DNA of 33,566 nucleotides from IMG/VR virus record IMGVR_UViG_3300045999_003816, positions 1 to 33,566 of that record; one strand, given 5' to 3'. Within the stretch, counting starts at the first letter, position 1. Each line of letters opens with the position of its first letter. The position numbers and the translations under genes are program-made. Source of the stretch: a virus. Positions 27,468-31,064 of this stretch are shown here, one piece after another. The notes beneath the pieces were generated by a model. The model was not told the DNA's origin and did no database searches. It was given only the letters and a program-made list of their open reading frames with translations.

Positions 27468-27512
27468 TCAGCTATTAAGTTATGCTTAATAGTTGGCCAC
27501 TTATCCACAACA
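27468..27512. promoter_or_regulatory. Operator-like hairpin and perfect DnaA box upstream of terS
   Basis: The gap contains an 8-bp perfect inverted repeat, ctattaag and cttaatag (27472-27479 and 27485-27492), and the perfect DnaA box ttatccaca at 27501-27509. The inverted repeat lies just before the terS start, which lacks a ribosome-binding site, so it could regulate transcription or translation of the packaging genes. Binding by the DnaA-like protein encoded next door is a plausible inference. Confidence 0.5.
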
Positions 27513-27812
27513 TCACAGGCCCCGCATAAGGCTAGCATAATTGATCTGCTGTATGTCAGTCACCACCGACCTCACGTCGCTGTACATAAGGTAGGCATCC
27601 TCGATGCTGGCGATGCCGTGCAACACCGTAGCATGGTGCTTTTGGCTGTGCTTGGCTATAGAGGTCAGCGTCCAGCCGTAGTGCTTGCTCAGGATATACC
27701 ACGTGATAGAACGCGCACGTACCACGTCAGCACGTCGTGTGGCACTGTAGGCATCCTCGAGTGTGACACCGCACAATGTGCATACGTCAGATAGGATCAA
27801 CTCGTATAACAT
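27513..27812 (-). CDS. Stand-alone DnaA domain IV-like DNA-binding protein (99 aa)
   Basis: Residues 30-75 match the DnaA C-terminal helix-turn-helix: VVRARSITWYILSKHYGWTL corresponds to the aaRqiamyL helix, and SIAKHSQKHHATVLHGIASI to the signature GRDHTTVLHA with its basic loop and recognition helix. That domain binds 9-bp DnaA boxes. The ATPase and other DnaA domains are missing, so this protein could mark or block boxes but not unwind an origin alone. AGGGGG precedes the ATG at 27812. Perfect boxes lie immediately downstream at 27501 and at 22789, and an origin candidate lies less than 1 kb upstream. Confidence 0.82.
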   Translation of the reverse strand: MLYELILSDVCTLCGVTLEDAYSATRRADVVRARSITWYILSKHYGWTLTSIAKHSQKHHATVLHGIASIEDAYLMYSDVRSVVTDIQQINYASLMRGL

Positions 27813-27820
27813 AAAACCCC

Positions 27821-28252
27821 CTAATTCTTTTTGACGAACTCGATGGCATCGTCAACAGATCTGACGATCCCATAGGGTACGCCATAACGCAGACAACAGT
27901 CCGAGAACCTGTCTTGCGTTTCCGACACCCTACCTTTGGCAGCCTTAACTTCTAACATCCATGCGCGGCCGTCACGATAGACAGCCAGGTCAGCATGGCC
28001 TGATGTGGCGTTAATGTTTACCACACGATACGAGGACAGCCGTGTGCCATGTTCCAGCTGTTGCGTTGAACTGTTGACACGGACAACCATATACCCTAAC
28101 ATGCACAGTTGGTCAGCTATGGCCTTTTGCACTACGCGCTCCGGTATAACACCCGAGGCTTTCTTGGCAGCCTTGGCACGCTTGGCAGCCTTCAGTTCAT
28201 CCAGCAGCCTATGCTCGCTCGCATCCCAGTCCAGATCGTCTATCTCTCTCAT
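27821..28252 (-). CDS. VRR-NUC domain nuclease (143 aa)
   Basis: The VRR-NUC fold is complete: IPERVVQKAIADQLCMLGYM begins the domain, the metal residue D88 is in TSGHADLAVYRDG, E101-x-K103 in WMLEVKAAKGRVS, and Q113 in ETQDRFSDCC. It belongs to the PD-(D/E)XK group that acts on branched DNA in replication and recombination. A lysine/alanine-rich segment (ELKAAKRAKAAKKASG) precedes it. I chose the ATG at 28252, which overlaps the upstream stop as ATGA with AAGGG before it. The frame runs to 28306 but would then overlap its neighbour by 58 bases. Confidence 0.85.
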   Translation of the reverse strand: MREIDDLDWDASEHRLLDELKAAKRAKAAKKASGVIPERVVQKAIADQLCMLGYMVVRVNSSTQQLEHGTRLSSYRVVNINATSGHADLAVYRDGRAWMLEVKAAKGRVSETQDRFSDCCLRYGVPYGIVRSVDDAIEFVKKN

Positions 28253-28923
28253 TGCATCCCTTGGTTGTTGTAACAGTGCCACAGTCCGTCGGTACCTTCG
28301 AACCATGTGTATCCGTCGACGTTATGCTCATACATCAGGGACAGCATGGTCTTGCCAGCCTTGACCCGTTGGCGCTCGATCATGGCCGATTCCAGCACCT
28401 CATGGCGTGAGATAAGTCTGGCCTCGGTAGCGTTGAATTGGGATAGGTCGGGGCCGTCATCGGGTAGGACGCCATCCCACGCGTCGCCTGGTGGCTGTTT
28501 ATACCGCTTAAAATACTCCCAATCCTGAGCCAGCACGTCGTGTAAATACGTACCTCGGGTTGCCTCGACGACGGCATCTATCGTTTCCGGTTGCAAGGTG
28601 CCCCCTGACGTAGCAACCGACGCCAAATCGTCGCAACTGTAACGATACCATTGACTTACGAGGAAATCCAGCATCCCCTCGGTTGCTAGGTTGCAGGGTG
28701 AAACTATAGTTTTCACTCTATACTTTTCATTTATTTCTCCTTCTACTTCTAATATATTCTTACAACCTAGCAACCTAGAGAAGTAAATATAGATATAGTA
28801 AGGGGTTAAGTCGGTTGCCACCTGTTCGTCTGAACTGACAACCTTCTGGCAATCCGGCAACCGAGGGGTGGCAACCGGACTCAGAAGCCCCATTTCGACT
28901 AATTCATCACGTGTGAACAGCAT
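28249..28923 (-). CDS. Unknown protein whose gene contains the candidate origin (224 aa)
   Basis: No family is recognised. The start is MLFTRDELVEMGLLSPVATP. The middle (PYYIYIYFSRLLGCKNILEV) is encoded by an AT-rich stretch, and the C-terminal half is helical (ATEARLISRHEVLESAMIER) and ends DGYTWFEGTDGLWHCYNN. GGTTGC hexamers in the first 335 bases of the gene are read in all three frames, producing peptides such as PVATP, RLPD and SRLLG. The DNA repeat, not the protein, therefore seems conserved. The stop overlaps the VRR-NUC start, and the start adjoins the primase gene. A replication role, such as an origin-binding protein, is suggested by position only. Confidence 0.7.
   Translation of the reverse strand: MLFTRDELVEMGLLSPVATPRLPDCQKVVSSDEQVATDLTPYYIYIYFSRLLGCKNILEVEGEINEKYRVKTIVSPCNLATEGMLDFLVSQWYRYSCDDLASVATSGGTLQPETIDAVVEATRGTYLHDVLAQDWEYFKRYKQPPGDAWDGVLPDDGPDLSQFNATEARLISRHEVLESAMIERQRVKAGKTMLSLMYEHNVDGYTWFEGTDGLWHCYNNQGMQ
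28589..28876. other. Candidate replication origin: GGTTGC iterons around an AT-rich core
   Basis: Eight exact GGTTGC/GCAACC hexamers lie within 288 bases: plus-strand at 28589, 28681, 28689 and 28813; minus-strand at 28613, 28770, 28857 and 28871. Two one-base variants (acaacc) are at 28762 and 28838. The extended consensus is close to CGGTTGCYA. Between 28695 and 28812 the DNA is strongly AT-rich with a palindrome aaactatagttt at 28701-28712. A perfect 13-bp inverted repeat (28681-28693 and 28763-28775) flanks it. Chance expectation for one hexamer here is about 0.14. The flanking genes are replication genes. Confidence 0.6.
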
Positions 28924-31064
28924 TAGAACTCCCCTTGCTCATCTACGTTGAATGGCGAATGAGCACCGCTCTTCGTGCCTATAATCACGTTGTAGCCCCT
29001 TCTCGTGCCCGTGGTGGTCTTTTTAGCTATTCGGGGTATGTTGGCCTTGGCTAATGCCCTTCCAAGCCCGTAAATGAACTTATCGTTGATTTGCAGGGAT
29101 ATCTTCTCTTCATCGAAGACACGGTTCGCCAGCTGTGATGCAACCTCGGACGTGGTCAGGAACGGCACGTGAGCCCCCGAGCCCTCCGGCTTGTGGGTTA
29201 TGTACTTGGACACTAAGTCGTCGTATTGCGTCAAAACTTCAAAGTGCTTGTTCCAATCGTTGATCTTGCTGATCTCACGATCATCAAACCAGTAACGTTT
29301 TCCCTCACGGTAGTATGCAACAGCCTGCGACCACAGACCGTCGATGTCAAACTGGCGTATAGCCGTAATGTCGATGTTGCCCCCTACCGGTATGACAGGG
29401 AACCGGCGCGATCCGGTCTCGTCGTTCAGGAAGGTGCGTCTGTTGACAGATCCGGCAAAGGAGCACCGTCTGGCGTACGTCGTCTCATACTTGTCGTAAG
29501 GAGACCGTAGGCGCATGGTGTCGGACGTGATGATGGCCTTGATAGATTCGTGCTGCTTCTTCGTCATCGACTCTAATTCGTCGTCTACGACCATGAAAGA
29601 CCTGGCAATGATCAGTTTGACGTCCTTGTCGTCTGAAATGCTGCCCTCATGGTAATAGTCTTGCCGAAGTTCCACAGGGCATAGGTGCCGTAGGTAGGTC
29701 GTCTTGCCTATCCCTTGGCCGCCCTGCAGAATGAGCATTATGTGGTTCGGTTTGTGATCGAGAGCACCGGCCACGGCCCCTATTAGCCACTTCTCGATAA
29801 TCATTTCAAAGATTGCGTGCTGTACTTCGGCTGAGTTATGCTTACCATCGTCGATGTCGGCATCGTGTGGCAGTAGCTGCACGTAATCACGGATGAAATT
29901 ACGATCGCCTGCTTTCCATTCGTCCAAACCTTCGAAATACGATTTGATAGGGTCGTGCTTAGGTACGAAATCACTATCGAGCACTTCGTTCATGCGTTCC
30001 TTGGTGATCTTGATGCCAATTTTCCGCATCTTCCGTAACTGTGAGTGCACCCAGTAGTCAGTCAGGGCTTCAAATTTGACATCGTTGTCGCCCCTGAGCT
30101 CGATTTTGCCTGTAATAACATTCTTGCGGAACTCGTAACCACTGGACAGGTACGATTCAACCTTGTCTAGGATCTCAGTCGGGTCTTTGGTCTCGAGTTT
30201 GATAATGTCCTTGGGAACCTCATACCCGTGCAGTCTGGCATAGTAGTACAGCGTCGCCGTGGTGACCCGTGTGAGCTTATTCTTGAGAACATCTGCATAC
30301 GTCAGGCCTCCAGACATCGGTGACCACTCCTCTAGGAGCTGTGCTGCCATCTTATCGTCTCCTAGGGCGTGTGCGACTGCTGCCACTACTTTCTTCCACT
30401 GGATGTGATCCTGCTGCTTAGGTATTACGCGCAGCATTGCTCTAATCTGGTCAACGTTCGGCTTAGTACCACCGAAGGCGTTAAAAGCAATCTCCAGATC
30501 TCGTGCTTCCTCATGGCCGTCTGTCATATCAGCTATCTGATCCATGGTAAGGATGTTACCCCAGACGTGGATCTGTGCGTTCTTAGCACCGAACCAGATG
30601 CGTACTGCATCTCGTGCGTTGGTGTCGCCTCCGAAGCGTTCAGCGAGTGCCGTGGTGATTGCTTTGTAGTCTTTGGCGTTGCGTATGGGCTCTTCGGTTA
30701 TAAACATGACCCGATAACGTGGGTTCTCTGCAGTGTGCGAGGCTGTCGTGTAGGCGAAGGAAGCGTACTTGCGGAAATAGGGGTCTGCCTCGATGTCGTC
30801 GAAGCTATGTTTGCCGTTGTCGACGTCAACGCCTACAATCTGTGCAGACTTGAAAGCATCGCCGTTGCGCTTGGCAAATCCTGTCTTCTGATCTACGTGC
30901 AAATCAGCACAGCAGATGGGAAACCCATGACCTACGAGGTGGTTGATGATGTCGTCGCTGACCATCTCGACAGGTGAGAGCTGAGCGCTTAGCGCCACCC
31001 AGTCCTGACGTGTTGCAGCCTTATTGACAACGGTTTTGTTTATCGATAGACGTATCACTTGCAC
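28923..31064 (-). CDS. Primase-helicase: PrimPol-like N-terminus with VapE/VirE-type C-terminus (713 aa)
   Basis: The N-terminal part has a D-x-D metal motif in QIVGVDVDNGKH (D80/D82) and an S-H motif in YTTASHTAENPRYRVMF, as in archaeo-eukaryotic primases of mobile elements. Residues of about 205-285 resemble a PriCT domain (IRAMLRVIPKQQDHIQWKKV). The C-terminal half is a VapE/VirE-like P-loop ATPase with Walker A ILQGGQGIGKTTYL (448-455), Walker B FMVVDDELE (491-496) and the family segment SVNRRTFLNDETGSRRFPVI. It should prime and unwind phage DNA. The start is a GTG at 31064, 9 bases after ACACGGAG. It is the likely central replication protein of this phage. Confidence 0.88.
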   Translation of the reverse strand: MQVIRLSINKTVVNKAATRQDWVALSAQLSPVEMVSDDIINHLVGHGFPICCADLHVDQKTGFAKRNGDAFKSAQIVGVDVDNGKHSFDDIEADPYFRKYASFAYTTASHTAENPRYRVMFITEEPIRNAKDYKAITTALAERFGGDTNARDAVRIWFGAKNAQIHVWGNILTMDQIADMTDGHEEARDLEIAFNAFGGTKPNVDQIRAMLRVIPKQQDHIQWKKVVAAVAHALGDDKMAAQLLEEWSPMSGGLTYADVLKNKLTRVTTATLYYYARLHGYEVPKDIIKLETKDPTEILDKVESYLSSGYEFRKNVITGKIELRGDNDVKFEALTDYWVHSQLRKMRKIGIKITKERMNEVLDSDFVPKHDPIKSYFEGLDEWKAGDRNFIRDYVQLLPHDADIDDGKHNSAEVQHAIFEMIIEKWLIGAVAGALDHKPNHIMLILQGGQGIGKTTYLRHLCPVELRQDYYHEGSISDDKDVKLIIARSFMVVDDELESMTKKQHESIKAIITSDTMRLRSPYDKYETTYARRCSFAGSVNRRTFLNDETGSRRFPVIPVGGNIDITAIRQFDIDGLWSQAVAYYREGKRYWFDDREISKINDWNKHFEVLTQYDDLVSKYITHKPEGSGAHVPFLTTSEVASQLANRVFDEEKISLQINDKFIYGLGRALAKANIPRIAKKTTTGTRRGYNVIIGTKSGAHSPFNVDEQGEF

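Follow-up and report, generated by a model that had tools for sequence, protein, structure and literature searches.

The C-terminal domain of SaPI Rep is reported to recognize iterons that lie immediately past the gene encoding this protein (PMC7581432). The isolated C-terminal domain of Cch2 also binds its putative SCCmec origin (PMC7581432). The archaeal plasmid pRN1 is described as a replicon that needs sequence downstream of the replication operon (PMC4234260).

We analyzed a viral DNA of 33,566 nucleotides (here called the window), which carries features of the SaPI Rep/VapE type: a VapE-family helicase immediately upstream and short repeats flanking an AT-rich tract downstream. As in SaPI Rep and PriRep1 (7pds, 7ola), which give the best fold match, a VapE-like AAA+ helicase is followed directly by multiple short iterons. 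Unlike in those systems, the repeats of the window read GGTTGC, a coding gene downstream of the helicase contains the array, and the helicase has its own N-terminal primase-like region. The SCCmec Cch2 system likewise has short repeats just downstream of the initiator helicase gene, bound by the Cch2 C-terminal domain, but its three AAGTG iterons are intergenic and its polymerase/primase proteins are separate (PMC7581432). A likeness to pRN1, an archaeal plasmid, is that the replicon of a plasmid replication protein depends on sequence downstream of its replication operon (PMC4234260).

We infer, with a probability of about 0.82, that the array is a phage replication origin of the self-loading VapE/SaPI Rep helicase type, with the VapE primase-helicase as the most likely binder of GGTTGC, which would load to the left and right of the AT tract and initiate replication there. 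A first-pass annotation had called this origin undescribed. What is new is its embedding in a coding gene; the layout is that of the SaPI Rep and SCCmec Cch2 origins (PMC7581432), and the SaPI/VapE-type origin itself is already known.

Iteron array and AT-rich core of the window

Counting both strands, the window contains 36 GGTTGC hexamers. Eight exact copies, four per strand, fall between 28589 and 28876, as the first-pass annotation had reported and our recount reproduced; a ninth lies just outside that range, and the gene at 28249-28923 holds all nine (Table 1). GGTTGC was the most clustered hexamer of the window, with 8 copies in 300 bases, compared with a best of 5 for any hexamer in 20 whole-window shuffles. 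Dinucleotide shuffling of the gene (2,000 shuffles) gave a mean of 0.35 copies and a maximum of 4, so that the clustering is far above chance; the expectation of 0.14 copies given earlier was about right (approximately 0.17 for 288 bases, from the shuffle mean).

Table 1. Positions of the array, its neighboring genes, and the proposed functional elements in the window
Feature	Position	Strand	Remarks
DnaA domain IV-like protein, 99 aa; possible accessory, not the favored iteron binder	27513..27812	-	E 1e-14
Host gene, 224 aa	28249..28923	-	First ~14 residues and C-terminal domain (about 130-224) conserved; iteron-bearing middle variable
Iteron GGTTGC, outer copy outside the range first reported	28558..28563	+	
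Iteron GGTTGC	28589..28594	+	
Iteron GGTTGC	28613..28618	-	
Inner iteron doublet GGTTGCTAGGTTGC, 8-base period, one inverted-repeat arm	28681..28694	+	Copies at 28681 and 28689
AT-rich core, proposed duplex-unwinding element	28700..28762	.	
Inner iteron doublet, one exact and one near copy, other inverted-repeat arm	28763..28784	-	Exact copy at 28770
Iteron GGTTGC	28813..28818	+	
Iteron GGTTGC	28857..28862	-	
Iteron GGTTGC	28871..28876	-	
VapE-family primase-helicase, 713 aa, proposed initiator	28923..31064	-	Gene ends about 46 bases before the first iteron
Predicted helix and beta-hairpin of the C-terminal winged-helix-like domain, residues 661-695	28980..29084	-	AlphaFold2
16-residue tip before RGY, proposed iteron reader	29001-29048	-	Covariation in other lineages

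The copies are spread over all three reading frames and both strands. Chance, or the coding bias of a repetitive protein, could account for part of such a count, since the amino acid sequence alone permits about 2.3 copies, the mean over synonymous-codon permutations of the gene (maximum, 8). At least nine copies were reached in 0 of 5,000 permutations, and the use of all frames and both strands, together with the retention of repeats as the protein diverges, refutes this explanation, whose probability we consider close to nil.

The inverted repeat, the palindrome, and the AT-rich core named by the first-pass annotation were also confirmed. The two arms of the inverted repeat, which match perfectly over 13 bp, lie at 28681-28693 and 28763-28775, on either side of the core; the palindrome is AACTATAGTT (28702-28711). 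AT content peaks, for 80-base stretches of the window, at 28717-28796, with GGTTGC copies on both flanks. An inflection of the GC skew had also been proposed as a check; the cumulative skew does have a minimum near the array, yet block shuffles place it there 9% of the time, and we treat this result as neutral and uninformative.

Host gene and conservation at the DNA level

The 224-residue host protein gave no Pfam, PHROG, or NCBIfam family, no DNA-binding family, and no match in the phage collection. Its residues 130 to 224 form a conserved C-terminal domain with a remote match in locus L216, where a weakly similar gene occupies the same place and the array differs, being made of AAGTAC repeats.

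The host gene is conserved beside vapE, and relatives whose VapE is 88 to 99% identical retain 7 to 11 GGTTGC copies just downstream of vapE. Within the alignment of the window and four relatives, the 22 bases ACTTCTCTAGGTTGCTAGGTTG around the inner doublet at 28763..28784 are invariant. When the host proteins are only 57% identical, 4 to 6 of the 9 hexamers remain exactly in place, compared with 16 to 18% of any 6-mers; lost GGTTGC copies are replaced at new places, and totals hold at 9 to 11. Each divergent host gene has a GGTTGC count above its synonymous permutation. Because these relatives at 57% identity keep 9 to 11 copies and the inner core, the constraint acts on DNA and not on protein, in agreement with the earlier claim that conservation is at the DNA level; whether related phages keep the repeats while the protein varies had been proposed as a check. 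In our best explanation, the small gene that separates vapE from the VRR-NUC gene houses the origin of this clade, which puts a constraint on the variable middle part of the host protein. The doublet AGGTTGCNAGGTTGC was also scanned in viral contigs, where it matched mostly unrelated places; therefore, the doublet alone is no marker of the window's origin.

Repeat arrays downstream of vapE

VapE-type loci came from a phage collection and from viral contigs, the latter searched for the domain and for Walker A motifs. In each non-redundant locus with enough downstream sequence, the strongest two-strand repeat cluster was sought blindly. The criterion, a cluster starting between -60 and +450 of the vapE stop, was fixed after the first 17 phage loci and then used on those and on later loci. 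The strongest cluster started in this interval in 51 of 68 loci, with 4.1 expected under uniform placement, although these loci share ancestry and the counts are not independent. The top cluster lay elsewhere in the remaining 17, and the same position test on other ORFs gave 10 of 265. A second (GKS) set had 9 of 33 loci within the interval, or about 19 if some ten further loci, whose CGGCAAC-like arrays overlap the vapE 3' end, are counted, a widening made post hoc.

The repeat sequence varies by VapE lineage (GGTTACAC, CGGTAGCA, AATGCCCC, GATGTAAC, and others). In 43 of 48 arrays, the AT tract belonged to the top 5% of the locus; the iteron orientations across the tract were more mirror-like than in shuffled arrays (0.44 versus 0.27). 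An array for a regulator, serving as operator or partition site and not as an origin, is a very improbable reading. Any oligomeric protein could bind short two-strand repeats, and the skew evidence is neutral, but the place after a replicative helicase is fixed across many lineages, and both the AT-rich center and the covariation with the helicase tip described below argue for an origin. Together with the DNA-level conservation, this position rule lends good support, on sequence grounds, to the proposal that a coding gene harbors an origin of the iteron type.

Embedding in a downstream gene is rare: the array lies inside an ORF starting at or after the vapE end in only 3 of 48 cases, the window included. 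CGGCAAC arrays over the 3' coding end of vapE were observed in L345, L378, L382, L393, L398, L411, L430, L432, and L433. With these arrays, coding and origin-like DNA overlap in a further lineage.

A coding gene that contains iterons together with an AT-rich stretch recalls the lambda-type origin in gene O. In lambda, the gene that hosts the origin encodes the initiator, and the host supplies DnaB as the helicase. By analogy, the 224-residue protein could be the initiator, binding repeats in its own gene and recruiting the helicase; the host gene is indeed conserved beside vapE and carries the array, and lambda O is the classical case of an initiator gene with internal iterons. We regard this as very unlikely, since the protein matches no DNA-binding family and most VapE arrays, all but the 3 of 48, have no such gene. 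The vapE - VRR-NUC order is also kept in the distant relatives L217 and L310 with no gene between; there, a TATATATA tract (TATATA) immediately after the end of vapE has G-rich repeats on one flank and C-rich repeats on the other, in an arrangement spotted by eye that is not the top scan cluster. Unlike in lambda, the likely initiator of the window is the neighboring helicase and not the host gene product.

The other neighbor named by the first-pass annotation, the DnaA domain IV protein, was confirmed along with the primase-helicase. A DnaA-type origin bound by this phage protein is a very doubtful alternative. Its gene lies about 0.8 kb from the array, and directly after its stop there is a TTATCCACA DnaA box (27501-27509), whose position is unchanged in 11 relatives. 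This box is single-copy and outside the array, GGTTGC is not a DnaA box, and a search for a DnaA-box cluster found only three TTATNCACA in the window and none in the array; moreover, arrays with lineage-specific repeats are general in VapE loci. Both the 224-residue and the DnaA-like proteins are less likely iteron binders, which could still assist.

The helicase tip and its covariation with the iterons

The window's helicase contains a VapE-like domain (E 7.5e-44), and its PriCT-2 match is weak, below the cut-off of that family. An AlphaFold2 model predicts a winged-helix-like C-terminus (mean pLDDT, 85.9). In a fold search, the top match of the model was the staphylococcal helicase PriRep1 with dsDNA (7pds, E 3.7e-19), and the VapE family sequence profile matches the same 7pds chain (E 1.7e-61). 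The predicted C-terminal fold is a likeness to SaPI Rep, for which origin recognition by this domain is reported (PMC7581432). Alignment searches with VapE gave no relatives in genome contigs and, in viral contigs, no new distant relative except L058 (28%).

We compared pairs of helicases whose AAA+ cores share 95% identity or more, taking as the tip the 16 residues before the RGY motif. In pairs with different iterons (n = 28), the tip differed at 30.8% of positions and the preceding 100 residues at 4.6%; in pairs sharing the same iteron (n = 29), the values were 4.5% and 2.7%. The iteron switch was seen in 7 clusters, all outside the window's clade (within-cluster permutation, p ≤ 0.0005). 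The iterons change in concert and keep their places, e.g., from ATGTAAC to ATGTCAC in L232/L318. Over all pairs, iteron similarity and C-terminal identity showed a weak rank correlation (0.13), the signal being confined to close pairs, as expected if the code changes fast. In the clade of the window, both tip and iteron are invariant, and the pairing is seen in other VapE lineages only. Tip and array are neighbors, and some of the covariation may be due to recombination events that replaced both at once. In searches of the open literature, we found no paper on VapE-tip/iteron covariation in phages.

As mentioned above, the primase-helicase is our preferred initiator. Of the two candidates put forward earlier, it is favored because the repeat tracks the helicase C-terminus in other lineages, and the 224-residue protein is disfavored by the many VapE arrays with no gene at that place. 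Position, fold, and the covariation seen in relatives lead us to propose that the 713-residue VapE binds the GGTTGC iterons just downstream of its own gene with its winged-helix-like C-terminal domain. The copies flanking the AT-rich core and the inverted inner doublets would then load two helicase rings, as suggested by their symmetry and by the SaPI model. Finally, the AT-rich core would melt, and the N-terminal primase part would prime the exposed strands.

On balance, we favor the view that a C-terminal VapE specificity tip of about 16 residues coevolves with the downstream iterons, giving one readable origin code across distant hosts of VapE phages and satellites, and that in the window's clade the cognate origin was taken into a coding gene. 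The 16 tip residues are proposed as setting origin specificity. To locate the origins of VapE phages and satellites, one would look immediately downstream of vapE for an AT tract flanked by a repeat that occurs on both strands. In the window's clade, one and the same DNA would serve as origin and encode a protein, so that the repeats persist while the surrounding protein changes.
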